Assembly (NCBI RefSeq): GCF_028737205.1
Contig: NZ_JAQZAL010000006.1
Location: 1-64,000, forward strand
DNA from: Actinomycetospora lutea
Lineage (GTDB): Bacteria > Actinomycetota > Actinomycetes > Mycobacteriales > Pseudonocardiaceae
DNA length: 64,000 nucleotides
Direction: 5' to 3'
The notes beneath the pieces were generated by a model. The model worked only from the letters and a program-made list of their open reading frames with translations. It was not told the DNA's origin and searched no databases. The position numbers and the translations under genes are program-made. Within the stretch, counting starts at the first letter, position 1. The number at the start of each line of letters is the position of its first letter. Shown here in pieces: positions 14,998 to 53,987 of the stretch.

Positions 14998-16149
14998 CTA
15001 GGTCTGGTGGACGACCCCCGCCTCCTGCAGCTTCGCGATCCGGTCGCGGTCGACGCCCCAGTCGGCGAGCGCCTCCGTCGAGTGCTGGCCCGGCGTGGCC
15101 GGGGGCGTCGGCGTGCCGCTGGGCGTGCGGCTGAAGCGTGGGGCCGGCGCCGGCTGGGTGACGCCGAACGCGTCGATGTGCAGGCCCCGGGCCTTGTTGT
15201 GCGGGTGCTCGACGGACTCCTCCATCTCGAGCACCGCGGCGACGCAGGCGTCGGTCGCCTCGAGGTCGGCGGCCCACTCGTCGCGGGTGCGGGTCGCGAA
15301 GACCTCGGCGATCCGCGCCCGGAACTCCGGCCAGCGGCCCATGTCCCACTGGTTGCCCGCGATCTCCTCGTCCTGCAGCCCGAGGCCCGTCATGAGCTCG
15401 GCGTAGAACTGCGGCTCGAGGGCGCCGACCGCGACGTACCCGCCGTCGCTGCAGCGGTAGTGGTCGTAGAACGGGGCGCCGCCGTCGAGGATGTTGCCGC
15501 CGCGGGGGTTCGGCCACAGCCCGCCCGCGCGCATCCCGTAGACCATCGCCATCTGCAGCGCGGCGCCGTCGACGATCGCGGCGTCCACCACCTGACCGCG
15601 CCCCGAGACGCCCCGCTCCACCAGCGCGCCGAGCACGCCGACCACCAGCAGCATCCCGCCGCCGCCGAAGTCGCCGACGAGGTTGATCGGGATCGCGGGC
15701 GCGCCGTCGCGGCCCTGCATGTGCGCGACGACGCCGGCCGTCGAGAGGTAGGTGAGGTCGTGCCCGGCGCGCGAGGCCTGCGGACCGTCCTGGCCCCAGC
15801 CGGTCATGCGGCCGTAGACCAGGCGCTCGTTGCGGCCGTGGCAGTCCTCGGGCCCGAACCCGAGCCGCTCGGCCACCCCGGGGCGGTAGCCCTCGAGCAG
15901 CACGTCGGCGGTCTCCACGAGGTCCATGAGCACCTCGAGGCCCTCGGGCGCCTTGAGGTCCAGGGCCACCGACCGCCGCCCGCGCGCGAGCACGTCCTTG
16001 TCGGTGTTGCCGAGCGAGAGCCCGCGCCCGCCGGCCGGCCGGTCGACGCGCAGCACGTCGGCGCCCATGTCCGCGAGCATCATCGCCGCGAACGGGCCCG
16101 GCCCGATCCCGGCGACCTCGATGACCTTGACGCCGTCCAGCACACCCAT
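14998..16149 (-). CDS. mcr: CaiB/BaiF family alpha-methylacyl-CoA racemase
   Basis: A 383-residue family III CoA-transferase fold enzyme, closest to alpha-methylacyl-CoA racemase, which epimerises 2-methyl-branched acyl-CoA so that it can enter beta-oxidation. Diagnostic residues are His130 in AGHDLTY and Asp160 in LVGDFGGGG, the two acid/base residues of the family. GDFGGG in place of a CoA-transferase aspartate loop also fits a racemase. It starts at ATG 16149 with CGAGGAGGACGAGG upstream. An operator-like palindrome sits 49 bases upstream (16198-16216). Its place beside fadB/thiolase fits branched-chain or sterol side-chain breakdown. Confidence 0.88.
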   Translation of the reverse strand: MGVLDGVKVIEVAGIGPGPFAAMMLADMGADVLRVDRPAGGRGLSLGNTDKDVLARGRRSVALDLKAPEGLEVLMDLVETADVLLEGYRPGVAERLGFGPEDCHGRNERLVYGRMTGWGQDGPQASRAGHDLTYLSTAGVVAHMQGRDGAPAIPINLVGDFGGGGMLLVVGVLGALVERGVSGRGQVVDAAIVDGAALQMAMVYGMRAGGLWPNPRGGNILDGGAPFYDHYRCSDGGYVAVGALEPQFYAELMTGLGLQDEEIAGNQWDMGRWPEFRARIAEVFATRTRDEWAADLEATDACVAAVLEMEESVEHPHNKARGLHIDAFGVTQPAPAPRFSRTPSGTPTPPATPGQHSTEALADWGVDRDRIAKLQEAGVVHQT

Positions 16150-16197
16150 GGGGCCCTCGTCCTCCTCGTGGTTCGCGGATCGACGCGAGCCTACGAG

Positions 16198-16216
16198 ACA
16201 GTCAGCGCTGACGGTA
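16198..16216. promoter_or_regulatory. Operator-like inverted repeat upstream of mcr
   Basis: The sequence is ACAGTCAGCGCTGACGGTA, with the perfect palindrome GTCAGCGCTGAC at its core (16201-16212). It matches three other sites, at 19940, 23108 and 26184, under the pattern ACAGTCA-N4-KGAC, each upstream of a fatty-acid gene or of a TetR gene. Binding by a TetR repressor is inferred. Confidence 0.6.
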
Positions 16217-16388
16217 TGGGTGCGCGGCCGTTCTGAGCGAAGGGCACCGTCGGTCGCAGAGACGGGCGAGAGGCACGTTCGGCGGGGCGGCGGCTCTCTC
16301 GATCATGCGCACGGTGCCGTTCGCGGGGGTGTGCCGCCGTCCCGCTGGTGCGCAGGGGCGCGCTCGCCGCCACCCCCAGGCCCGGAAC
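16217..16388. other. Intergenic region between mcr and fadB
   Basis: No gene is seen. It contains scattered GCCGTTC/GAACGGC words resembling the arms of the neighbouring hairpin element. Confidence 0.4.
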
Positions 16389-16434
16389 ACGAACGCGCCC
16401 TCGCTGCTTCGGGAGCAGCGAGGGCGCCGTTCGT
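16389..16434. terminator. Long hairpin downstream of fadB, intergenic repeat element
   Basis: ACGAACG-CGCCCTCGCTGCT pairs with AGCAGCGAGGGCG-C-CGTTCGT over about 19 base pairs with one bulge and a five-base loop. It lies 46 bases past the fadB stop on the minus strand and would act as a terminator there. Its left arm is nearly identical to that of the element at 51735-51785. Confidence 0.6.
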
Positions 16435-16479
16435 TCGGGAACACCGCGCGCAGCCGGACCTGCCGGCTACGCCGAGGGC

Positions 16480-18648
16480 TCACTCCCCGCGCAGGGTCTG
16501 GCCCTTCTCCGCCTTCTCGACCAGCGAGGCCGGCGGCTGGAACCGGTCGCCGTAGGCCTTGGCGAGGATGCGGGCGCGCTCGACGAACCCGGGCAGGCCG
16601 CCGGGGTAGCCGTCGATGTACTGCGCCACGCCGCCGGTCCAGGCCGGGAAGCCGATGCCCATGATCGAGCCGATGTTGGCGTCGGCGATGGTGTGCAGGA
16701 CACCCTCGTCGAAGCACTTCACGGTCTCGAGGGCCTCGGCGAAGAGCATGCGCTCCTGCATGTCCTCGAACGGCAGGTCACCCTGCGCGGCCCCGAACTC
16801 CTCGGTCAGGCCGGGCCAGAGCCGCGTGCGCTTGCCCGACTCGTCGTACTCGTAGAACCCGGCGCCCGACGAGCGGCCCTTGCGGCCGAGCTCGACCATC
16901 CGGTCGATGATCGCCTCGGAGGGGTGCTCCACCCAGGTGCCGCCGGATTCCTCGACGCCGCGGCGGGTCTCCTGGCGGATCTTCTGCGGCAGCGTCAGGG
17001 TGAGCTCGTCCATGAGCTGCAGCGGCGGGGCCGGGTACCCGGCCTGCGAGCCCGCCTGCTCGATCGACGACGGCGCCGCGCCCTCGCCCAGCATCGCGAC
17101 GGCCTCGTTGATGAACGTGCCGATGACGCGGCTGGTGAAGAACCCGCGGCTGTCGGAGACGACGATCGGCGTCTTCTTGATCTGCAGGGCGATGTCGATC
17201 GCCTTGGCCAGCGTGGCGTCGCTGGTCCTCTCGCCCTTGATGATCTCCAGGAGCGGCATCTTGTCGACCGGCGAGAAGAAGTGCAGGCCGACGAAGTCCT
17301 CGGGGCGGTCGACGCCCTCGGCGAGCCCGGTGATGGGCAGCGTCGAGGTGTTCGAGCCCAGCACGGCGTCGGGCGCCAGGTGCGGGAGGATCTCGGCGAA
17401 GACCTGCTTCTTGAGGTCCGGGCTCTCGAAGACGGCCTCGATGACGAGGTCGGCGCCCGCGGCGGCCGACGCGTCGGCGGTCGGCGTGATGCGCGCGAGC
17501 ACCTCGTCGGCCTTCTCCTGGGTCTGCTTGCCGCGCGAGACGGCCTTGTCCAGGATCTTCTGCGAGTACGCCTTGCCCTTCTCGGCGTTCTCCTGGCTGA
17601 CGTCCTTGAGGACGACCTCCAGGCCCGACATCGCGCACGAGTACGCGATGCCCGCGCCCATCATCCCGGCGCCGAGCACGACCACCTTGCGGGCGGTGTG
17701 CTTCTCGTAGCCGTCGGGCCGCGAGGCGCCCTTGTTGATGGCCTGCAGGTCGAAGAAGAACGCGCGGGTCATGTTCGTCGACACCTGGCCGCAGGCGAGC
17801 TCGGCGAAGTAGCGCGACTCGATCGTGCCGGCGTTGTCGATGTCGACCTGCGAGCCCTCGACGGCCGCGTCCATGATCAGGTACGGCGCGGGCATCGGGG
17901 CGTTCTTGAGCTGCTTGCGCAGGTTGGCCGGGAACGCCGGGAGGTTCGCGGCGAACTTCGGCGTCGACGGCGTGCCGCCGGGGATCTTGTAGCCCTTCTG
18001 GTCCCAGGGCTGCACGGCCTCCGGGTTGGCCTTGATCCACTCCTTGGCCTTCGACAGCAGCTCCTCGGGGCTGTCGACGACCTCGTGCACGAGGCCCGCC
18101 TCGAGCGCGGCCCGCGGGGCGCGCTGCTGGCCCTGCAGCAGCACGTTCATGAGGCCGTCGGCCAGGCCGAGCAGGCGCACGACGCGCACGACGCCGCCGC
18201 CGCCGGGCAGCAGGCCGAGCGTGACCTCGGGCAGCCCGATCTTCGAGCCCCTGGCGTCGAGGGCGATGCGGTGGTGGCAGGCCAGCGCGATCTCGAGGCC
18301 GCCGCCCAGCGCCGCGCCGCTGATGGCGGCGACGACCGGCTTGCCCAGGGTCTCCAGGCGCCGCATCAGCTTCTTGATCTGCTGGGACTGGTCGAAGACC
18401 TTCTGCGCGTCGGCCTTCGTGTACTTCACGAGGTCGTCGAGGTTGCCGCCCGCGAAGAAGGTCTTCTTCGCCGAGGTCAGCACGACGCCGGTGATCGAGT
18501 CCTTCTCGGACTCGAGACGCTGCAGCGTCTCGGCGAAGTCCTCGCCGAACTTGGCGTTCATCGTGTTGGCCGAGGCGGTCGGGTCGTCCATCGTCAGCGT
18601 GACGATGCCGTCCCCGTCGGCCTCCCACCGGAACATGTTCTCGGACAC
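16480..18648 (-). CDS. fadB: Multifunctional enoyl-CoA hydratase / 3-hydroxyacyl-CoA dehydrogenase
   Basis: A 722-residue beta-oxidation enzyme. The N-terminal crotonase domain (1-200) has the oxyanion segment [11 protein letters not shown] with Glu119 and a second catalytic Glu141 in [16 protein letters not shown] linker leads to the NAD-binding Rossmann domain beginning [12 protein letters not shown] (326-333). The dehydrogenase His456 is in [18 protein letters not shown], and the C-terminal 3HCDH domains follow ([27 protein letters not shown]). It starts at ATG 18648 and lies 44 bases downstream of the thiolase on the same strand, so the two make a classic fadA-fadB operon. The operator at 19940 would control both. 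The hairpin at 16389 ends the unit. Confidence 0.93.
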
Positions 18649-18692
18649 TGCGGTGATCGCTCCTGTCGTCGGTCGGTCGGTTCCGGGGTGGC

Positions 18693-19901
18693 TCAGACGC
18701 GCTCGATGATGGTGGCGACACCCATGCCGCCGCCGATGCAGAGCGTGACGATGGCGCGGCGCAGGTCGCGGCGCTCGAGCTCGTCGACGATCGTGCCGAC
18801 GAGCATCGCGCCGGTGGCGCCCAGCGGGTGGCCGAGCGCGATGGCGCCGCCGGCGACGTTGGTGCGCTCGTGCGGGAAGCCGAGGTCGCGCATCAGCTTC
18901 ATCGGCACGGCGGCGAACGCCTCGTTGATCTCGAGGAGGTCGATGTCGTCGACGGTCATGCCGGCCTTGGCCAGGACCTTCTCGCAGGCCGGCGTCGGGC
19001 CGGTCAGCATGATCGTCGGGTCGGCGCCGGAGACGGCGGTGGCGACGATGCGGGCGCGCGGGGTGAGGCCGTTCTGCTTGCCGGCCTCCTCGGTGCCCAG
19101 CAGCACGAGCGCGGCGCCGTCGACGATGCCCGAGCTGTTGCCCGGGTGGTGGACGTGGTTGATCGCCTCGACCCAGTGGTACTTCTGCAGGGCCACCGCG
19201 TCGAAGCCGCCCATGTCACCGATGCCGGCGAACGACGGCTTGAGGCTCGAGAGCCCCTCCATCGTCGTCTCGCGGACGTGCTCGTCGTGGTCGAGCACGG
19301 TCAGGCCGTTGCGGTCGAGGACGGGCACGATCGAGCGCTCGAAGGCGCCGTCGGCCCACGACTTCGCGGCGCGGGTCTGCGACTCGAGCGCGTAGGCGTC
19401 GACGTCCTCGCGGCTGAAGCCCTCGAGGGTGGCGATGAGGTCGGCGCCGATGCCCTGGGGCACGAAGGAGGTCTTGAAGTTGGTCTCCGGGTCCATCGCC
19501 CAGGCGCCGCCGTCGGAGGCCATCGGGACGCGGGACATGGACTCGACGCCGCCCGCGACGATGAGGTCCTCGTACCCGGAGCGGACGCGCTGGCCGGCCT
19601 GGTTGACGGCCTCGAGGCCCGAGGCGCAGAAGCGGTTGAGCTGGACGCCGCCGACGTGGTCGGGCAGGCCCGCGGCGATGGCGGCGGTCTTGGCGATGTC
19701 GCCGCCCTGGTCGCCGATCGGGGACACGCAGCCGAGAACGACGTCCTCGATCTTGTCGGGGTCGAGCTCCGGGTTGCGCTTGCGCAGCTCGTCGATCAGG
19801 CCGACGACCAGCGACACCGGCTTGGTCGCGTGCAGCGAACCGGTGGCCTTGCCCCGGCCCCGCGGGGTGCGGAGGGCGTCGTAGATGAATGCCTCGGTCA
19901 C
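18693..19901 (-). CDS. fadA: Acetyl-CoA acetyltransferase (thiolase)
   Basis: A 402-residue thiolase performing the last beta-oxidation step. Cys92 in [11 protein letters not shown] is the acyl-enzyme nucleophile; GHPLGATGA carries the activating His and CIGGGMG the second Cys. NEAFA is also present. GTG 19901 is chosen for AAGGGATCC upstream and for the family start [14 protein letters not shown]; the frame is open 13 codons further. It is the first gene of a two-gene operon with fadB. A strong inverted repeat at 19940-19958, 39 bases upstream of the start, is placed to act as an operator. Confidence 0.94.
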
Positions 19902-19938
19902 GGGTGGATCCCTTCGCAGATGCGAGCCGACTGCTCTC

Positions 19939-19958
19939 AACAGTCATGATGGACTGTT
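19939..19958. promoter_or_regulatory. Operator-like inverted repeat upstream of fadA-fadB
   Basis: AACAGTC (19939-19945) and GACTGTT (19952-19958) form a perfect 7-base inverted repeat around ATGATG. The 19-mer from 19940 matches the sites at 16198, 23108 and 26184. It lies in the divergent region between fadA and the ChoD-like oxidase and could affect either. Confidence 0.65.
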
Positions 19959-20045
19959 TTGCGCAGGTGTCAACGCCGCCTACTGGCGAGTAGGGTCGTG
20001 CGGCTCTCGTTGACACGTTGCCAACGACTGGCGAGGCTGGATCGC

Positions 20046-21809
20046 GTGCCCGGCCCGCGCCCCGAGACCGACCCCGAGCCCGACTACGACGTCATCGTGG
20101 TGGGCTCGGGCTTCGGCGGCTCGGTCACCGCACTGCGCCTGACCGAGAAGGGGTACCGCGTCGGGGTGCTCGAGGCCGGGCGCCGCTTCGCCGACCACGA
20201 GTTCCCCGCCACGTCCTGGCACCTGCGCGACTACCTGTGGGCGCCGTGGGCCCGCTGCTTCGGCATCTTCCGGGCGACCCCGTTGCGCGACGTCCTCGTG
20301 CTCTCCGGTGCCGGCGTCGGCGGGGGCTCGCTCGTGTACGCCAACACGCTCTACCGCCCTCCGCGCGCCTTCTACGACGACCCGCAGTGGGCCGGTGTCA
20401 CCGACTGGGCCGACGAGCTCGACCCGGCCTACGACCAGGCCGCCCGCATGCTCGGCGTGACCACCTACCCGCGCGTCTCGCCCTCGGACGCGGTCATGCG
20501 CGACGTCGCCGAGGAGATGGGCGTCGGCCACACCTACCGGGCCGCCGACGTCGGCGTCTTCTTCGGCGCGCCGCCCGGCGAGCAGGTGCCCGACCCCTAC
20601 TTCGGCGGCGCGGGACCGTCGCGGCACGGCTGCCGGCACTGCGGCGAGTGCATGACCGGCTGCCGGCACGACGCCAAGAACACGCTGGTCAAGAACTACC
20701 TCTACCTCGCGGAGGCCGCCGGCGCCGAGGTGCACCCGATGACGACGGCGACCGCGATCCGCCCGCGCGGCGGCGACCTGTCCGGGGCGTCGGGCTACGA
20801 GGTCGACGTGCGCGCCACCGGTCGCCCGGGCCGTCGGCGCACCCTGCGGGCCGACCAGGTCGTCGTCGCCGCCTCCGCGCTCGGCACCCAGCGGCTGCTG
20901 CACCGGCTGCGCCGCCGCGGCGACCTGCCCCGCATCTCCCCGCGGCTCGGGGAGCTCTCGCGCACCAACTCCGAGGCGATCCTCGCCGCCCGCACCGCCA
21001 GCGAGGCCGCCGACTTCACCCGCGGCGTCTCGATCACCTCGTCGATCCACCCCGACGAGCACACCCACGTCGAGCCGGTGCGCTACGGGCGCGGCTCCAA
21101 CCTGCTGGCGCTGCTCTCGGCCGTGCTGGTCGACGGGACCTCGGCGGCGGACGACGCGTCACGGGGCGAGCGCGGTCCCTCGTGGCGGCGCATCGCGGGC
21201 GAGCTCGTGCGGTCGCGGGGGACGCTGCGCGCGCTGCACCGCCCGCGGCGCTGGGCCGAGCAGTCGATCGTGCTGCTGGTGATGCAGACGCTGGACAACT
21301 CGCTGACCCTGCGGCCGCGCCGGTTCCTCGGCGGGTTGCGCTCCCGCCCGGGCGCCGGGACGCCGAACCCGGCGTGGATCCCCGCCGGCCACGAGGTGGC
21401 CCGGCGCGTGGCCCGGCGCATGGGCGGCTTCCCCGTGGGCGCGAGCTCGACGCTGGTGAACCTCCCGGTGACCGGCCACTTCCTCGGCGGCGCGGTGATC
21501 TCCGAGTCGCCGGCGTCCGGTGTCGTCGACCCGTACCACCGGCTGCACGGGCACCCCGGCGTCCACGTCGTCGACGGGTCGACGGTGCCGGCGAACCTCG
21601 GCGTGAACCCGTCGCTGCCGATCACCGCGCTGGCCGAGCGGGCGATGTCGCTGTGGCCCCGCCGCGGCGAGCCCGACCCCCGCCCGGCGCCCGGCGCGCC
21701 CTACGAGCGCGTCACCCCCGTGGCGCCGCAGCACCCCGCCGTGCCCGCGGAGGCGCCCGGCGCCCTGCGCATCGACCTCCCCACCCCGACCCTGGGAGCC
21801 CGACCGTGA
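20046..21809 (+). CDS. choD: GMC-type FAD oxidoreductase (ChoD-like cholesterol oxidase)
   Basis: A 587-residue flavoprotein resembling mycobacterial ChoD. The dinucleotide-binding motif is DYDVIVVGSGFGGSVTALRL with EAGRRF downstream; the second FAD contact is SGAGVGGGSLVYANTLY. Further family marks are GCRHCGECMTGCRHDAKNTLVKNYLYLAE (Cys-rich), SITSSIHPDEHTHVEPVRYG and the C-terminal GVHVVDGSTVPANLGVNPSLPITALAERA. GTG 20046 starts the protein just before the acidic lead into the FAD fold. Its stop overlaps the next start (GTGA). Oxidation of a 3-hydroxysteroid is suggested by the family but unproven; many ChoD-like proteins have other or unknown substrates. Confidence 0.82.
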   Translation: MPGPRPETDPEPDYDVIVVGSGFGGSVTALRLTEKGYRVGVLEAGRRFADHEFPATSWHLRDYLWAPWARCFGIFRATPLRDVLVLSGAGVGGGSLVYANTLYRPPRAFYDDPQWAGVTDWADELDPAYDQAARMLGVTTYPRVSPSDAVMRDVAEEMGVGHTYRAADVGVFFGAPPGEQVPDPYFGGAGPSRHGCRHCGECMTGCRHDAKNTLVKNYLYLAEAAGAEVHPMTTATAIRPRGGDLSGASGYEVDVRATGRPGRRRTLRADQVVVAASALGTQRLLHRLRRRGDLPRISPRLGELSRTNSEAILAARTASEAADFTRGVSITSSIHPDEHTHVEPVRYGRGSNLLALLSAVLVDGTSAADDASRGERGPSWRRIAGELVRSRGTLRALHRPRRWAEQSIVLLVMQTLDNSLTLRPRRFLGGLRSRPGAGTPNPAWIPAGHEVARRVARRMGGFPVGASSTLVNLPVTGHFLGGAVISESPASGVVDPYHRLHGHPGVHVVDGSTVPANLGVNPSLPITALAERAMSLWPRRGEPDPRPAPGAPYERVTPVAPQHPAVPAEAPGALRIDLPTPTLGARP

Positions 21810-22525
21810 CGACCTACCCGCCCGAGCCCTGGACGCTCGTCGGCCGCATGGACGTGTCGACCTTCCTGGTGCCGACCGACACGCTGCCCACCGCGACCTG
21901 GCCCGACGGCTGGACCCCGCTCGTCCTCGGCGGGCACACGCCCGTCGGCGCGGCGTGGGTGCGCTACGACCCCGGCGGGGTCCTGAGCTACCGCGAGCTG
22001 CTGGTGGCCGTCGCCGGGCGCGTGGGCGCGCGCATCCGCCCGCACATCGTCGCGATCTGGGTCGACAGCCCCGCCTCGCGCGACGGCGGGCGTGAGCTCT
22101 GGGGCATCCCCAAGGGCCTCGCGAGCTTCAGCGGGTTCGACGAAGGCACGCCCACGATGACCCTCGAGGGGGCCGCGCGCCCCGCCGCGCGGGCGGTCCT
22201 GCGCCACGGCCCGCGCCTGCCCGGGCGCCCGCCCCTCGGCTTCACCCTCGCCCAGGACCTCCACGGGCGGCGGTGGGAGAGCCCGGTGGCGAGCCGGGCC
22301 ACGCTCGGCATGCTGCGCGCCGACTGGCGCTTCGACGTCGAGGGCCCGCTGCGGTTCCTCGCCGGCAAGCGCCCGATCGTCTCGGCGACCCTCCATGACT
22401 TCGCGATGCTCTTCGGGATGACGCCGACCGATCGCGCGAAGGACGAGCAGGACAACGAGCGATGCGGCATCGCTGGCGTCACACGCCAGGATCGCCACAC
22501 GCTCGGTTCCGCGACACGCCGATGA
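21806..22525 (+). CDS. Acetoacetate decarboxylase-like protein
   Basis: A 239-residue protein starting at GTG 21806, which overlaps the choD stop, so translation is probably coupled. The ADC-superfamily core is visible: YRELLVAVAGRVGARIRPHIVAIWVDSPASRDGGRELWGIPK, where ELWGIPK corresponds to the E-GFPK motif carrying the Schiff-base lysine. The C-terminus after FGMTPTDRAKDEQ is atypical and overlaps the next gene's start by four bases. The family includes decarboxylases and enzymes acting on beta-keto acids and lactones. Coupling to a sterol-oxidase-like gene suggests a role on its product, but that is inference. Confidence 0.72.
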   Translation: MTTYPPEPWTLVGRMDVSTFLVPTDTLPTATWPDGWTPLVLGGHTPVGAAWVRYDPGGVLSYRELLVAVAGRVGARIRPHIVAIWVDSPASRDGGRELWGIPKGLASFSGFDEGTPTMTLEGAARPAARAVLRHGPRLPGRPPLGFTLAQDLHGRRWESPVASRATLGMLRADWRFDVEGPLRFLAGKRPIVSATLHDFAMLFGMTPTDRAKDEQDNERCGIAGVTRQDRHTLGSATRR

Positions 22526-23121
22526 GTGCCCCGGTCCGCGGCCGGCGCCTCGACCCCGACGCGCGTCGCGAGGAGATCGTCGCCGGGGCGCTGCGCCTGT
22601 TCGCCGCGCACCCCTACGCCGCGGTCTCGACCACCGACCTCGCCCGCGAGGCCGGCGTCGCCCGCGGGCTGATCAACCACTACTTCGGCACCAAGCGCGG
22701 GCTCTACCTCGAGGTCGTGCGGCGCCTGACGACGATCCCCGAGGTGGCCGTCGCCGAGCTGCCGCCGGGCACGGTCGAGGTGCGCGCCGGCGCGGCCGTG
22801 GACTGGTTCCTCGACGCGGTCGAACGCCACCGCGGCCTGTGGCTCTCGGTCGGCACGGGTGCGGCGGGCGACATCGACGTCGACGCGATCCTGGCCGAGG
22901 CCGACGAGATCGCCGCCGACCGCGTCCTCGCCGCGCTCGCGCCCGGCGCACCCGACGACCCGTACCGCGCCCGCGTGCGCTCGTTCTTCGGCCTGGTCCG
23001 CTCGGCGTCCCGCGAGTGGCTGGTGCGCGGCACGCTCGACCGCGCCGGCACCCGGGCGCTCCTCGTCGACGTCCTGCTCGCGGTGCTGCGTGGTCCGGGC
23101 CCCGGTGACAGTCAGGTTTGA
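22522..23121 (+). CDS. TetR family transcriptional regulator
   Basis: A 199-residue regulator. The helix-turn-helix is at residues about 14-60: RREEIVAGALRLFAAHPYAAVSTTDLAREAGVARGLINHYFGTKRGLYLEV in family terms, with the Y-F-K end typical of TetR_N. The C-terminal ligand domain is Ala/Asp-rich. It starts at ATG 22522, overlapping the stop of the decarboxylase-like gene, so it belongs to the choD unit and probably reports on that pathway. The tail ends in the operator-like repeat that precedes the next TetR gene. Confidence 0.85.
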   Translation: MSAPVRGRRLDPDARREEIVAGALRLFAAHPYAAVSTTDLAREAGVARGLINHYFGTKRGLYLEVVRRLTTIPEVAVAELPPGTVEVRAGAAVDWFLDAVERHRGLWLSVGTGAAGDIDVDAILAEADEIAADRVLAALAPGAPDDPYRARVRSFFGLVRSASREWLVRGTLDRAGTRALLVDVLLAVLRGPGPGDSQV

Positions 23122-23126
23122 CCGTT
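23108..23126. promoter_or_regulatory. Operator-like repeat upstream of the second TetR gene
   Basis: The sequence is ACAGTCAGGTTTGACCGTT, with GTCA-GGTT-TGAC at its core (23111-23122). It overlaps the last codons of the preceding TetR gene and ends 62 bases before the next start, which fits autoregulation. It matches the sites at 16198, 19940 and 26184. Confidence 0.6.
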
Positions 23127-23188
23127 CGCGGTCGCGGCGGCACGATCGTCCGCGACACGTGACCGGCGAGCAGACGGGGGGAGTCGAG

Positions 23189-23854
23189 ATGGTGAGCAGC
23201 CGCGCCGCGGCCGAGCCCGAGCGACGGTCCCGCGAGCAGCGGACGTCCGACAGTCGCACGCGCATCCTCGACGCGGCCGTGGCCTGTCTCGTGGAGTCGG
23301 GCTACGCCGGCACCACCACGCTGACCATCCAGAACCGCGCCGGGGTGTCCCGCGGGCGCCTGCTGCACCACTTCCCGTCGAAGGAGAACCTGCTCGTCGC
23401 CGCCGCGCAGCACCTGGCGACCAGCCGCTTCGCCGAGGACGGGCTCGCGCGCGCCGACCTGCCCGCCGCCGACGTCGACGCCGACGCGCGGCTCGACCGC
23501 GCGGTCGAGGTCATGTGGTGGACCTATCAGCAGGCCTACTTCTGGGCCTCGGTCGAGCTGTGGACCGCGGCGCGCACCGACCCGTCGCTGGCCGCGGCGC
23601 TCCTGCCCGCCGAGCGGCGCCTCGGGGCGGCCATCCGCCAGACCGTCGACGCGTTCTTCGAGGACTACGCCGAGCCGGCCCGCGCCGCGCTGCTGCGCGA
23701 GACCCTGCTGACGAGCATGCGCGGGGTGGCGCTGACCTACGGCTTCGACCCCCGCGACCCGCAGACCGACCCGCACCTCGAGCAGTGGAAGCAGCTCGCC
23801 AGGATGCTGCTGCTGCTGCCCGAGGGCGGGCCCGGTCCGGTCGAGGTCAGTTAG
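23189..23854 (+). CDS. TetR family regulator, candidate fatty-acid repressor
   Basis: A 221-residue TetR protein starting at ATG 23189 behind GGGGGGAG. Residues about 15-65 form the DNA-binding domain: SRTRILDAAVACLVESGYAGTTTL, then RAGVSRGRLLHHFPSKENLLVAAAQHL. The ligand domain contains the Trp-rich VMWWTYQQAYFWASVELWTAARTD, a pocket composition seen in acyl-CoA-responsive TetR proteins. Four copies of one inverted repeat lie before this gene and before the mcr, fadA and acyl-CoA dehydrogenase/fadD genes. It is therefore the best candidate for a local repressor of beta-oxidation, although the TetR at 22522 cannot be excluded. It overlaps the end of the downstream opposing gene by four bases. 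Confidence 0.85.
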   Translation: MVSSRAAAEPERRSREQRTSDSRTRILDAAVACLVESGYAGTTTLTIQNRAGVSRGRLLHHFPSKENLLVAAAQHLATSRFAEDGLARADLPAADVDADARLDRAVEVMWWTYQQAYFWASVELWTAARTDPSLAAALLPAERRLGAAIRQTVDAFFEDYAEPARAALLRETLLTSMRGVALTYGFDPRDPQTDPHLEQWKQLARMLLLLPEGGPGPVEVS

Positions 23855-24946
23855 AGCAGCGACTTCAGCGTCTCGAGCGACGACTTCACGGTGTCGTGGT
23901 CGGGCTCGAGGGGCTGGATGTTGAGCTGCGTGACGCCCGCGGCGGCGAACTCGCGGACCTGCTCGGCGACCTCGTCCTCGCTGCCGATCAGCGACACCGC
24001 GTGCACGAGCTCCTCGGGCACCTTCTCCGCCGCCTCGTCCTTGCGACCGGACAGGTAGAGGTCCTGGATCTCGGCCGCCTCGTCGGCGAAGCCGTAGCGC
24101 GCGGCGAGGTCGTTGTAGAAGTTCTTGCCCTTCGCGCCCATCCCGCCCACGTAGAGGGCGAGCTGGGGACGCACGTGCTCGCGCAGCTTCCCGGCGCCCG
24201 GACCGACGGCGAACGGCACGTTGACCGAGGTCTGCAGCTCGCCCAGCGACGGGTCGCGGCGGGCCTTGCCGGCCTCCAGCGCGGAGCCCCACACCTCGTG
24301 CGCGCGGCCCGGGTGGAACCAGATCGGCTCCCACACCTCGGCGAGCTCGGCGGCCAGCTCGACGTTCTTCGGCCCGAGCGCGGCCAGCATGACCGGGATC
24401 CGCTCCCGCACCGGGTGGTTGATCAGCTTGAGGGGCTTGCCGAGCCCGGTGCCCTGCTCCGGGGGCAGCGGGACGGTGTAGTGCTTGCCGGAGTACTGCA
24501 CCTTCTCGCGGCGCCACACCTGCCGGCAGATCTCGACGATCTCGCGCGTGCGCCCGACCGGGGCGTCGTACCTGATCCCGTGGAAGCCCTCGATGACCTG
24601 CGGCCCCGAGGCGCCCATGCCGAGCACGAAGCGTCCGTCGGACACGTAGTCGAGCCCCGCCGCGGTCATCGCCGTCAGCGACGGCGTGCGCGTGTAGATC
24701 TGGACGATCCCGGACTCGCTGGCTCGCCACCCGAGGGTCACGTTGCACTTCACCCCGACCTCGGGTGTGCACCCGCGAGGTGCGCGCCGCGATGTAGCCG
24801 AGCTGGCTGACCGCGTCGAAGCTGTACAGCTCCGCGACGCTCACCGCGTCGAGCCCGATCTCCTCGAGCTCGACGAGCTTCTCGACGGTCTCGCGGAACC
24901 CGCCGTGGGCGTAGGCGATGCCCATCCCGACCTTCATCGCGCTCAT
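23851..24946 (-). pseudogene. F420-dependent LLM-class oxidoreductase, frame-disrupted
   Basis: A luciferase-like, F420-dependent oxidoreductase in two frames. The N-terminal piece starts at ATG 24946, overlapping the dehydrogenase stop (ATGA), and reads MKVGMGIAYAHGGF, EEIGLDAVSVAELYSFDAVSQLGYIAARTSRV. The C-terminal piece resumes in another frame at SGIVQIYTRTPSLTAMTAAGLDY and continues through GRFVLGMGASGPQVIEGFHG to the stop at 23851. The expected join of a few residues is replaced by about 55 bases (roughly 24722-24776). These contain the inverted repeat CACCCGAGG...CCTCGGGTG and shift the frame. Unless the assembly is wrong, the enzyme is broken. A shorter product from an internal start (GTG near 24753) would lack the N-terminal strand-helix units. 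Confidence 0.75.
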
Positions 24947-26085
24947 CCGAGCACCACCCGTCCGATGATCTCCTTCATGATCTCGGTGGTGCCGCCGTAG
25001 ATCGTCTGGACGCGGGTGTCGAGGTACGCCTTGGCGACCGGGTACTCCTTCATGTAGCCGTAGCCGCCGTGCAGCTGGAGGCATCCGTCGATGACCTCCT
25101 TGGCCGACTCGCTGGCCCAGTACTTGGCCATCGAGGCGTCGGCCGGGCCGAGCTTGCCCTCGTTCAGCTCGGTGATGCAGCGGTCCACGAAGGTCCGGGT
25201 CACGGCGAGCTTGGTGGCCAGCTCGGCGGTGGTGAACCGCACCGTCTGGAGCTTCGCGAGCGGCTTGCCGAACGCGGTGCGCTCCTTGACGTAGGTGATC
25301 GTGTCGTCGAGCACCCGCTCCGCGCCCGCCGTGGCGCCGACGGCGATCGAGAGCCGCTCGCGGGGCAGGTTCTGCATCAGGTAGATGAAGCCCTTGCCCT
25401 CCTCGCCGAGCAGGTTCGACGCGGGCACGCGGACGTCGGTGAAGGACAGCTCGGCGGTGTCCTGGGCGGACATGCCGATCTTCTCGAGGTTGCGGCCGCG
25501 CTCGAAGCCGGGGGTGTCGCGCTCGACGACGATGAGGCTGAAGCCGTGCGCGCCGGCGTCGGGGTCGGTCTTGCAGACGACGATCACGAGGTCGGACATG
25601 ATGCCGTTCGTGATGAACGTCTTCTGACCGTTGATCACCCACTCGTCGCCGTCGCGGACGGCGCGGGTCTGGATGCCCTGCAGATCGGAGCCGGTGCCCG
25701 GCTCGGTCATCGCGATCGCCGTGATCATCTCGCCGGTGCAGAAGCGCGGCAGCCAGCGCTGCTTCTGCTCGTCGGTGGTCAGCTCCGTGAGGTACGGCGC
25801 GATGACGTCGTTGTGCAGCGTGAAGCCCAACCCGCTCGTGCCGGCCCGGGCGACCTCCTCGGTGACGACCCACTGGAAGCGCAGGTCGGGCGAGCCGCCG
25901 CCGCCGTACTGCTCGGGGACGTCCATGCCCAGCAGGCCTGTCTTCCCGGCGGCGTGCCAGATCTCGCGGCTGACGTGGCCCTGCTTCTCCCACTCCGGGT
26001 GGTGCGGGACGGCCTCCTTCTCCAGGAAGTCCCGGACCATCTGCCGGAAGTCGTTGTGCTCGTCGGAGAAGATCGTGCGCTCCAC
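24943..26085 (-). CDS. fadE: Acyl-CoA dehydrogenase (long-chain/isovaleryl-type active site)
   Basis: A 380-residue FAD enzyme catalysing the first beta-oxidation step. Signature segments are TEPGTGSDLQGIQT (about 127-140, flavin and substrate binding), WVINGQKTFITNG and the C-terminal QLHGGYGYMKEYPV, followed by TIYGGTTEIMKEIIGR. The usual YEGT glutamate is Gly here, so the catalytic base is probably Glu243 in LPRERL, as in long-chain and isovaleryl-CoA dehydrogenases. It starts at ATG 26085. It is followed by the F420 oxidoreductase with ATGA coupling and diverges from fadD across a region holding the shared operator. Confidence 0.92.
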   Translation of the reverse strand: MERTIFSDEHNDFRQMVRDFLEKEAVPHHPEWEKQGHVSREIWHAAGKTGLLGMDVPEQYGGGGSPDLRFQWVVTEEVARAGTSGLGFTLHNDVIAPYLTELTTDEQKQRWLPRFCTGEMITAIAMTEPGTGSDLQGIQTRAVRDGDEWVINGQKTFITNGIMSDLVIVVCKTDPDAGAHGFSLIVVERDTPGFERGRNLEKIGMSAQDTAELSFTDVRVPASNLLGEEGKGFIYLMQNLPRERLSIAVGATAGAERVLDDTITYVKERTAFGKPLAKLQTVRFTTAELATKLAVTRTFVDRCITELNEGKLGPADASMAKYWASESAKEVIDGCLQLHGGYGYMKEYPVAKAYLDTRVQTIYGGTTEIMKEIIGRVVLG

Positions 26086-26183
26086 CGGGTGGCCTCCACT
26101 GTGGGTGGTTCGGACGCCGTCGCGGTCCCGAGGCGTCCCGGGAACCGTGCCGGTCCGGCTCAGCGTGACCGCACCGGCGGGTA

Positions 26184-26202
26184 ACAGTCAAGCCTGACTC
26201 TT
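26184..26202. promoter_or_regulatory. Operator-like repeat in the fadE/fadD divergent promoter
   Basis: The sequence is ACAGTCAAGCCTGACTCTT; AGTCA (26186-26190) and TGACT (26195-26199) are a perfect inverted repeat. It lies between the divergent acyl-CoA dehydrogenase (start 26085) and acyl-CoA ligase (start 26294) and could control both. It is the fourth member of the ACAGTCA-N4-KGAC set. Confidence 0.65.
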
Positions 26203-26293
26203 CCGCCGTTCCGTATGAGCAGTTACGGTCGCGCCTGCCCTGTGGTCGGCGTCACCACGGCCCCGTTTCGTCCCGTTCCGTGTGGAGGTCCCC

Positions 26294-27832
26294 GTGCCGT
26301 TCCGCCTGACCGACGTCGTGCGCCAGCACGCGAGCACCACCGACCTGGTGGCGATGACGTTCGACGGCCAGGACACCACCTACGCCGAGATGGACCGCCG
26401 CGCCGGCCTCGCCGCCCGCGCGATGGCCGCCGACGGGGTCGGCGCGGGCCACCGGGTGGTGTGGCTCGGCAAGAACCGCCCCGAGTTCTTCGACCTGCTC
26501 TTCGGCGCCCCGCGCGTGCGGGCGGGCACCGCGCCGCTGAACAACCGGCTCACCCACGACGAGCTGATCGCGATCATCGAGGACTCGGCCGCGCCGTTGG
26601 TGGTGCTCGGGCCGGACTTCGCCGACCTCCGCGGCCGGGTCGAGGCGCTGGACGCCGTGCGCCGCGTGCTCGTGGTGGGGGAGGACTACGACGGCTGGCT
26701 GACCGCGTCGGACGAGGTGCTCGACCCGCCGGAGGACGCGCAGGACGACGACTGCGTGCTGCAGCTCTACACCTCGGGCACCACCGGGCTGCCCAAGGGC
26801 GTCGTGCTCACCCACACCCAGTTCGCCGCGTTGCTCTCGGTCGGCGACCACTGGGGCTTCGACACCGAGTCGGTCGGCCTCGTCGCCATGCCGCTGTTCC
26901 ACATCGGCGGCTCGGGGTTCGCGCTGGTCTGCCTGTCGTTCGGGGCGCGCTGCGTCCTGATCGCCGACATCGTCCCCGACCAGCTGCTCGCGACGATGGC
27001 CGACGAGGGCGTCACCAACGCCTTCCTCGTGCCGGCGGTGCTGCAGTTCCTCACCGGCGTGCCGGGTGCCGCCGACAAGGACTGGTCGAAGCTGCGCGCG
27101 ATCGCCTACGGCGCCTCGCCGATCACGAGCACCGTGCTTAACCGCGTGCTCACGACGTTCCGCGCCCCGTTGTTCCAGGTCTACGGCTCGACCGAGACCA
27201 CGGGCGCGATCAGCCAGCTCGACCCCGAGGACCACGACCCGGACGGCCCCCGCGCGCACCTCATGCGCTCGGCGGGCAAGGCCTACCCGTGGGTGGAGCT
27301 CAAGGCCGTCGACCCGGCGACCGGCGAGGACGTCCCCCCGAACACGGTCGGCGAGATCTGGGTCCGCTCCTCCCAGGTGACACCGGGCTACTGGGCGCGT
27401 CCCGAGGAGACCGCGACGGCGCTCTCCGACGGCTGGTTCCACACCGGCGACGCGGGTTACCTCGACGAGGAGGGCTATCTCTTCCTCACCGACCGGATCA
27501 AGGACATGATCGTCACCGGGGCCGAGAACGTGTACCCCATCGAGGTCGAGAACGTCCTGTCCGGCCACCCGGACATCGCCGACGTCGCCGTCATCGGCGT
27601 GCCGGACGAGCGGTGGGGCGAGGCGGTGAAGGCGGTGGTCGTCGCGAACGAGGGCAGCGAGATCGACACCGACGCGCTGCTCGAGTGGTGCAAGGAGCGG
27701 ATCGCGGGCTTCAAGCGCCCGCGGTCGGTCGACGTCATCGACGCCCTCCCGCGCAACCCCTCCGGGAAGATCCTCAAGAAGGACCTCCGCAAGCCCTACT
27801 GGGAGAACGCCGAAGGCCGGCACATCGGCTGA
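26294..27832 (+). CDS. fadD: Fatty-acid-CoA ligase
   Basis: A 512-residue adenylate-forming enzyme that activates a carboxylic acid to its CoA thioester. The P-loop-like motif is LYTSGTTGLPKGVVLTH (about 160-176), followed by YGSTETTGAI and GWFHTGDAGYLDEEGYLFLTDR with the conserved Asp/Arg. The hinge leads to MIVTGAENVYPIEVENVL, and the catalytic lysine is in RNPSGKILKKDLR near the end. GTG 26294 is chosen because GGAGG lies six bases upstream; an in-frame GTG at 26282 would place that sequence inside the gene. It is divergent from fadE, with the shared operator between. Confidence 0.92.
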   Translation: MPFRLTDVVRQHASTTDLVAMTFDGQDTTYAEMDRRAGLAARAMAADGVGAGHRVVWLGKNRPEFFDLLFGAPRVRAGTAPLNNRLTHDELIAIIEDSAAPLVVLGPDFADLRGRVEALDAVRRVLVVGEDYDGWLTASDEVLDPPEDAQDDDCVLQLYTSGTTGLPKGVVLTHTQFAALLSVGDHWGFDTESVGLVAMPLFHIGGSGFALVCLSFGARCVLIADIVPDQLLATMADEGVTNAFLVPAVLQFLTGVPGAADKDWSKLRAIAYGASPITSTVLNRVLTTFRAPLFQVYGSTETTGAISQLDPEDHDPDGPRAHLMRSAGKAYPWVELKAVDPATGEDVPPNTVGEIWVRSSQVTPGYWARPEETATALSDGWFHTGDAGYLDEEGYLFLTDRIKDMIVTGAENVYPIEVENVLSGHPDIADVAVIGVPDERWGEAVKAVVVANEGSEIDTDALLEWCKERIAGFKRPRSVDVIDALPRNPSGKILKKDLRKPYWENAEGRHIG

Positions 27833-52745: not shown

Positions 52746-53987
52746 TCAGCGTGCCTCCGCCAGCAGGTCGGCCATGCGGGTGACGCCGGTGCGCAGGTCG
52801 TCGTCGCCGAGGGCGTAGGAGAGCCGGAAGTACCCCGGGGTCCCGAACGCCTCGCCGGGCACGACGGCCACCTCGGCGTGCTCGAGCACGAGCGCGGCGA
52901 GGTCGACGCTGGTCTGCGGGCGCTCGCCGCGGATCTCCTTGCCGAGCAGCTCCGTCACCGACGGGTAGGCGTAGAACGCGCCGCGCGGCACGGGGCAGGT
53001 GACGCCGTCGATGCCCGAGAGGAGCTCGACGATCAGCCGCCGGCGACGGTCGAACGCCTCGCGCATCTCGGCCACCGCGTCCAGCGGGCCCGTCACGGCG
53101 GCGAGCGCGGCGCGCTGCGCGACGTTGCAGACGTTCGAGGTCAGGTGCGACTGCATGTTGATGCCGGCCGCGACGACGTCGGCGGGCCCGATCATCCAGC
53201 CGACCCGCCAGCCGGTCATCGCGAAGGTCTTCGCGACGCCGTTGAGCACCACGCAGCGGTCGGCGATCTCGGGCACCGCCACCGGCATCGACACGTGCTC
53301 GGCGCCGTCGTAGACGAGGTGCTCGTAGATCTCGTCGGCGATCACCCAGATGCCGTGCTCGGCGGCCCAGCGCCCGACGGCCTCGACGAGCTCGCGCGGC
53401 GCGACGGCCCCGGTGGGGTTGGACGGCGAGCACCACAGCAGCGCCTTGGTGCGCGGCGTGCGCGCCGCCTCGAGGGCCTCGACGGTCGGCAGGAAGTCGG
53501 TCGACTCGTCGGTGTCGATCTGGACCGGGTCCCCGCCCGCCATGCGCACGGCCTCGGGGTAGGTCGTCCAGTACGGGGCGGGCAGCAGGACCTCGTCGCC
53601 CGGGTCGATCAGCGTCGCGAACGCCTCGAACACGGCCTGCTTGCCGCCGTTGGTGACGAGCACCTGGCGCGCCTCGACCTGCCACCCCGAGTCGCGGGCG
53701 GTCTTGGCCGCGACGGCGTCGCGCAGCTCGGGCAGCCCGGCCGCGGGGGAGTAGCGGTGGTTCTTGGGGTCCGAGCACGCGGCGATCGCGGCGTCGACCA
53801 CCGGCTGCGGCGTGGGGAAGTCCGGCTCGCCGGCGCCGAAGCCGATCACCGGGCGGCCGGCGGCCTTGAGCGCCTTGGCCTTCGCGTCGACCGCCAGCGT
53901 CGCCGACTCCGCGATCCCGCCGACACGCGCCGAGATGCGGCGGTCGGTCGCGGAGGGGTGCAGGGAAGTCGAGGACGACGACGTCAT
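52746..53987 (-). CDS. PLP-dependent aminotransferase (aspartate transaminase type)
   Basis: A 413-residue class I aminotransferase. [23 protein letters not shown] is the family N-terminal motif; the PLP phosphate region includes [18 protein letters not shown] and [12 protein letters not shown] are conserved contacts. The Schiff-base Lys lies in [16 protein letters not shown], and [11 protein letters not shown] holds the substrate-carboxylate Arg (FRLSYA). ATG 53987 is the start; a TAGGAT box eight bases upstream suggests a leaderless transcript. Mycobacteria have an aspC-type gene elsewhere; here it lies between hadB and secE. Aspartate or a related amino acid is the likely substrate. Confidence 0.9.

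Follow-up and report, generated by a model that had tools for sequence, protein, structure and literature searches.

What controls the fatty-acid breakdown genes of Actinomycetospora lutea? We studied the first 64,000 nucleotides of contig NZ_JAQZAL010000006.1 (the window), in which genes for beta-oxidation lie among genes for TetR-family regulators. A first-pass annotation had proposed that four copies of one operator, at 16198, 19940, 23108, and 26184, define a local fatty-acid regulon that is repressed by the TetR protein encoded at 23189. The operator copies are where they were said to be, and the 23189 protein quite probably represses through them, but the regulon is not local: beyond the window, the genome has at least five more acyl-CoA or redox genes with this operator in front, and the system occurs in many genera. 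Our argument is built on what we computed, namely the sites, their conservation, their placement at promoters, and their co-occurrence with the TetR.

The operator and its targets

A search of the 64-kb window for ACAGTCANNNNKGAC found exactly those four copies, all on the + strand, versus a mean of 0.10 and a maximum of 2 in 100 shuffles. As had been suggested by eye, there are no exact copies at other promoters in the window. If up to 2 mismatches to ACAGTCANNNNTGAC are allowed, then the only places in the whole window besides the four known sites are at 53140 and 56852; this search returned 10 rows in total, as compared to a chance mean of 8.62, so there is no excess at such looseness.

The operator had been described as an inverted repeat with a core of 12 bp. 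It is an inverted repeat, but the true unit is longer, an 18-bp palindrome of the form ACNGTCA-N4-TGACNGT (Table 1). Two of the four copies fit this palindrome perfectly and two have one mismatch; the copy at 19940 reads ACAGTC-N6-GACTGT. Profile searches against Pfam and NCBIfam, which we used to assign families, agree with the proposed identities of the nearby genes: a CoA-transferase of family III (mcr), FadB, FadA, an acyl-CoA dehydrogenase, an acyl-CoA ligase, and two TetR proteins. The sites do lie upstream of beta-oxidation genes or a TetR gene, as had been claimed, except that the site at 23108 additionally overlaps the last codons and the stop codon of the upstream TetR gene (22522-23121).

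Across the whole genome (6.53 Mb in 106 contigs), the pattern from the first-pass annotation has five exact copies: four in one 10-kb stretch and a fifth at C22:70211. It misses most of the other sites because position 3 can be a base other than A. If one mismatch to ACNGTCANNNNTGACNGT is tolerated, there are 14 sites, versus 1 for a control (throughout, the same pattern read backwards). The 18-bp form ACAGTCANNNNTGACNGT with up to 2 mismatches gives 47 rows versus 14 for the reversed pattern, in a tally that counts near-palindromic places on both strands. For ten of the 14 sites, a called gene starts no more than 100 bp downstream; these are the four sites in the window and six elsewhere. In this genome-wide search, which had been proposed as a check, the promoter-placed sites are mostly at acyl-CoA or redox genes. 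We take the two short-chain dehydrogenases among the remote targets to be HSD10-like; their family profiles identify them as short-chain dehydrogenases and no more narrowly. The identity of the AtuA gene is taken from an intact copy in the sister genome G011 (locus L168) because the gene is split in the present draft, where it appears as several open reading frames (L187:3730-5470, in G000:C40) instead of the single frame of 579 residues in G011.

The operator is well conserved within Actinomycetospora. In all 18 genomes searched from the genus, including the present one, the 23189 TetR match is preceded by an exact palindrome, which begins 79-187 bp upstream of it, and each genome contains at least two exact copies, while the control had no matches in any of them. 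Sites upstream of tetR, fadA, and fadE/fadD are present in 16 of 16 named contigs from the genus, and a site upstream of mcr (with 0-2 mismatches) is present in all 11 of these contigs that reach mcr. In an alignment of 17 sequences between fadE and fadD, the conservation of the operator was 0.97, versus 0.61 for the remainder. The corresponding values upstream of fadA were 0.98 and 0.61 (17 sequences; the operator ranks third of 283 alignment windows), and upstream of mcr they were 0.88 and 0.46 (12 sequences; tenth of 283). We also inspected a selection of 29 further loci, which we labeled by eye, with a check against Pfam for L155, L168, and L170. At these loci, the site precedes a short-chain dehydrogenase (10 cases), a quinone-oxidoreductase-like gene (6), AtuA (2), an enoyl-CoA hydratase (1), or mcr (1). 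Genes in sister loci were called, and their starts chosen, with a simple codon-bias score that was trained on nine open reading frames from the window, including one, 20018-22525, that is partly out of frame; genes in these loci were named by eye except where a family search is given.

We next considered relatives of the 23189 protein in 80 named contigs, which were the best of 211 and of which 16 are from the genus. With at most one mismatch, these contigs contain 131 sites, versus 0 for the control, and at least one site is present in 16 of 16 contigs from the genus and in 48 of the 64 others. Those 64 contigs account for 71 sites (again versus 0 for the control), of which 70 are intergenic or have a gene start just downstream. 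The targets, as labeled by eye, are thiolase, acyl-CoA ligase, acyl-CoA dehydrogenase, short-chain dehydrogenase, enoyl-CoA hydratase, CoA-transferase, LLM oxidoreductase, or TetR genes, along with a few unrelated genes. A site before a 23189-type TetR is found in Actinomycetospora, Blastococcus, Geodermatophilus, Protofrankia, Frankia, and Prauserella. In several contigs from other genera, there is a site about 3.3 kb upstream of the TetR and before a thiolase-like gene. Finally, across 200 genomes of the order, we found 85 exact sites, versus 7 for the control. Of the 33 genomes that carry a strong orthologue of the 23189 protein, 22 contain the motif, compared to 35 of the 167 that do not (Fisher P = 5.7e-7, which ignores the relatedness of the genomes), and 46 sites are in the genomes with strong orthologues and 39 in the remainder. 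Here, a strong orthologue is a match with E of 1.1e-70 or better, and this line was set after viewing the matches.

The candidate regulator and its rivals

The 23189 protein contains a TetR_N helix-turn-helix domain (PF00440, 53.4 bits versus a cut-off of 24). Its AlphaFold2 model has nine helices with a mean pLDDT of 84.9, an all-helical domain follows the helix-turn-helix, and the structure matches shown for the model are TetR-type. The closest listed match to the protein, at 98%, is from Actinomycetospora succinea. Three tryptophans, W110, W119, and W125, are conserved in 90% or more of 66 relatives. Among the 18 readable helix-turn-helix regions from the 19 best matches in the genome, only the 23189 protein has the recognition stretch IQ..AGVSRG.LLHHF. 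At four distant TetRs with a similar recognition stretch (in G053, G086, G077, and G095), an exact site precedes the called start by 14-86 bp. These four came from a biased sample of 10 order-wide sites, some of which were picked because a TetR match adjoined them; of the other six sites, three are within coding sequence, one precedes a thiolase-like gene by 433 bp, one precedes an unrelated gene by 33 bp, and one is unclear. Enoyl-CoA-hydratase-like genes are near the distant TetRs of loci L216-L219 (in L216, Pfam identifies both a hydratase and a TetR). Given the 18 of 18 exact upstream sites, the co-occurrence across the order, and the recognition stretch, the first-pass annotation picked the best candidate for the repressor.

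Because of those four loci, we also suggest, only tentatively, a wider picture: TetR paralogues that differ in their ligand domains would share one recognition stretch ([IV]Q..A.[VLA]SRG.[LM]LHHF) and a single operator within a regulon for acyl-CoA catabolism common to Pseudonocardiaceae, Geodermatophilaceae, and Frankia-like actinobacteria. Several sensors might then compete for the same promoters of beta-oxidation. The operator that these four distant TetRs have in common also suggests a route to predict the operators of related TetRs that are uncharacterised.

How might the regulator work? Two promoter-like matches were found within 16100-26400, and the better one, before fadA, matches 10 of 12 consensus bases (0.1 such matches are expected). 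Its CATCAT element (19951-19946, minus strand) is inside of the fadA operator while its TTGACA is outside. As the predicted -10 box lies under the operator, repression is likely. Elsewhere, the distance from the site to the called start codon of the target is 20-98 bp. We infer binding to the palindrome as a dimer, repression, and an acyl-CoA ligand, as follows. The dimeric TetR (23189-23854) would bind ACNGTCA-N4-TGACNGT at its own promoter; at the promoters of mcr, fadA-fadB, fadE, and fadD; and at remote targets, namely the two short-chain dehydrogenases, the enoyl-CoA hydratases, the quinone-oxidoreductase-like enzyme, and the AtuA gene. Bound TetR would cover promoter elements and block RNA polymerase. 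Once acyl-CoA made by FadD accumulates, it would bind to the TetR's C-terminal domain, the protein would release the DNA, and the pathway would turn on. The circuit probably holds the genes for fatty-acid breakdown off until they are required. We lean towards acyl-CoA, presumably long-chain, as the inducer, given the targets and the known TetR regulators of lipid metabolism. FdmR, a mycobacterial TetR that we return to below, reportedly responds to long-chain acyl-CoA.

Several observations weigh against our account. In the genome itself, 4 of the 14 sites overlap called coding sequence (on C17, on C23 at the 3' end of an open reading frame, at C40:204583, and on C95), which may be due to chance. 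Of the 29 further loci, 7 are at a pair of genes that comprises an ECF sigma factor and an unannotated gene, 1 is inside a chaperonin gene, and 1 lacks a clear target. Outside of the genus, the 300 bp before the TetR contain a site with no more than one mismatch in only 25 of 64 contigs (in 33 of 64 if two mismatches are allowed), and 16 of 64 have no site in the stretch that we examined. Among 12 non-genus loci, the upstream site was exact at 1 and had two mismatches at 3, and neither kind was present at 8. The exact motif is absent from 11 of the 33 genomes with a strong orthologue, and it is present in 35 of the 167 without one. Also, the comparison of recognition stretches covered the 19 matches that were similar enough to the query to be listed.

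Might another protein be responsible? The obvious candidate is the other TetR in the window (22522-23121), which adjoins the operator and the beta-oxidation genes and whose 3' end touches the 23108 site. But in seven genomes from the second clade of the genus, its closest homologue (64-69% identical) is at another locus, and a search of about 1.5 kb on either side, allowing up to 2 mismatches, found no motif at any of these seven loci. (No homologue was found in the eighth genome of this clade, G013, which is 59% complete.) Among 10 loci from the first clade, just one has a site within 1.5 kb upstream of the homologue, and this is the fadA site, while the sites and the 23189 orthologue occur together in 18 of 18 genomes from the genus. 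Because its homologue in the second clade sits elsewhere without a site, we consider it very unlikely that the 22522 TetR regulates these sites. A third, unlinked regulator could bind the palindrome, with the 23189 TetR being merely one of the targets. This could account for the motif in the 35 genomes that lack a strong orthologue, and for the majority of non-genus contigs that have no close site directly before the TetR. We think that this is unlikely: a site before a 23189-type TetR recurs across the six genera listed above, and four other TetRs with a similar recognition stretch have the same site.

The remaining questions are about what the 23189 protein does and whether the motif is an operator at all. 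The protein might be an activator, or it might sense another ligand such as a branched or terpenoid-derived acyl-CoA, which would fit with AtuA and a CoA-transferase of family III being among the targets; also, our Pfam search recognised no C-terminal ligand-domain family in this protein. This idea overlaps with our preferred explanation, as it involves the same protein and the same sites. It is possible, but we doubt it: an operator that covers the predicted -10 box of fadA fits with repression, and fadD, fadE, fadA, and fadB are general beta-oxidation genes. As for the motif being a mere promoter element, the half-site TTGAC does resemble a -35 box, and it is present within some of the sites, such as 23108 and (on the other strand) 26184. 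However, both arms are kept: all 71 sites from the 64 non-genus contigs agree at positions 4-7 and 13-15 (which, admittedly, belong to the pattern by which the sites were chosen). Furthermore, the sites are rare (14 in 6.53 Mb) and concentrated at acyl-CoA genes, and fadA has a separate TTGACA outside of the operator. Of all the alternatives, this strikes us as the most improbable. We favor repression by the 23189 TetR.

Table 1. Sites, genes, and remote targets of the proposed regulon. Remote targets are given by the contig and position of the site.
Feature	Position	Strand	Remarks
CoA-transferase family III, alpha-methylacyl-CoA racemase/CaiB type (mcr), 383 aa	14998..16149	-	Pfam PF02515, E 1.5e-84
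Operator before mcr	16198..16215	.	Exact 18-bp palindrome; 48 bp from mcr ATG
fadB, enoyl-CoA hydratase/3-hydroxyacyl-CoA dehydrogenase, 722 aa	16480..18648	-	Pfam PF02737, PF00378
fadA, acetyl-CoA C-acyltransferase, 402 aa	18693..19901	-	NCBIfam NF006090, 689 bits vs cut-off 514
Operator, fadA-fadB promoter	19940..19957	.	38 bp from fadA GTG; covers predicted -10 box
Predicted fadA promoter TTGACA-16-CATCAT	19946..19973	-	Consensus match only, 10/12 bases
Operator before TetR gene	23108..23125	.	63 bp from ATG at 23189
TetR-family regulator, 221 aa, proposed regulon repressor	23189..23854	+	PF00440, E 2.2e-14; alternative start GTG 23159
F420-dependent LLM oxidoreductase downstream of fadE	23851..24753	-	TIGR03559, 425 bits vs cut-off 335
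fadE, acyl-CoA dehydrogenase, 380 aa	24943..26085	-	Pfam PF00441, PF02770, PF02771
Operator, fadE/fadD divergent promoter	26184..26201	.	98 bp from fadE; 92 bp from fadD (GTG 26294)
fadD, long-chain acyl-CoA ligase, 512 aa	26294..27832	+	NCBIfam NF004837, 485.9 bits vs cut-off 476; start may be 26282
PIG3-like quinone oxidoreductase	C18:161963		Site 24 bp before; TIGR02824, 235 bits, below cut-off 297
Short-chain dehydrogenase, then enoyl-CoA hydratase	C18:421146		Site 42 bp before
Second short-chain dehydrogenase	C22:70208		Site 75 bp before
AtuA gene	C40:25682		Site 29 bp before
Enoyl-CoA hydratase	C18:407099		Site 51 bp before
F420-dependent NADP oxidoreductase	C36:771		Weak site, 20 bp before

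A few other features of these loci should be mentioned. The F420-dependent LLM oxidoreductase and fadE possibly form one transcription unit. The oxidoreductase (23851-24949, minus strand) seems to be frame-shifted near 24755: the match to TIGR03559 starts at profile position 58, and an N-terminal part can be read upstream in another frame. This may be an error in the draft or a decayed gene. The interval between fadA and the main TetR (20046-23121) is found in one clade of the genus and encodes a GMC enzyme, an acetoacetate-decarboxylase-like protein, and the second TetR. The GMC enzyme is cholesterol-oxidase-like, at 545 bits, which is under the NCBIfam cut-off of 850. In the second clade, the homologue of the 22522 TetR is beside an apparent GMC-type enzyme and a P450 (by eye). 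Seven sister loci from clade 2 (L061, L064, L155, L158, L162, L165, and L171) carry the exact palindrome ACGGTCATCCGTGACGGT, on either strand, with a non-lipid target; it lies between the ECF sigma-factor gene and the unannotated gene, the latter followed by a purK-like gene (in L162, the sigma-factor gene was not called). At the left end of the window, the open reading frames at 471-1697 and 3-461 resemble transposase genes (by eye).

Comparison to known systems

For fatty-acid breakdown in actinobacteria outside of Mycobacterium, this work offers a sharply defined operator, a candidate regulator, and a list of targets, and a single purified protein with short DNA probes would suffice for a test. 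Among the listed results of our searches of the open literature, no title or beginning of an abstract describes this regulator, although it may have been published. A literal search of the literature for the motif found unrelated papers only.

TetR repressors of beta-oxidation are of a known kind. Several known TetR regulators have operators that are unlike ACNGTCA-N4-TGACNGT. For example, BkaR/Fad35R (Rv2506) of mycobacteria is an autoregulated TetR that is encoded beside acyl-CoA genes, and its operator is GTTA(N)T(N4)A(N)TAAC (PMC3920632). MftR, a mycobacterial TetR that binds long-chain acyl-CoA, has the operator T-N2-GGCA-N5-TGCC-N2-A (PMC8728441), and another palindrome that is associated with mycobacterial fatty-acid genes is TAC-N6-GTA (PMC3388012). 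Nor does the 23189 protein reach the NCBIfam cut-off for any of the families that we considered: KstR (31.2 bits versus a cut-off of 280), the TetR-type FadR of Bacillus (22.4 versus 200), FasR (30.9 versus 330), PsrA (20.2 versus 300), MftR (20.5 versus 224.9), BetI (43.1 versus 201.3), or ScbR (41 versus 150).

FdmR of Mycobacterium marinum is a TetR that regulates fadE5 and other genes for fatty-acid catabolism (PMC9262360). By its described function, it does the same job as we propose for the 23189 protein. KstR (Rv3574) of mycobacteria is an autoregulated TetR repressor of sterol and lipid catabolism that binds as a dimer (PMC1995591). It is among the Foldseek matches of the 23189 model, and as with the system that we propose, one palindrome is spread over many promoters of lipid catabolism and the regulator controls its own gene (which, for the 23189 protein, is suggested by the sites). 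The operator of KstR, TnnAACnnGTTnnA, is different, while the sites in the window fit ACNGTCA-N4-TGACNGT by inspection. The 23189 TetR would resemble KstR, FdmR, and Bacillus FadR in how it works, while lying outside of the families that can be tested with NCBIfam.

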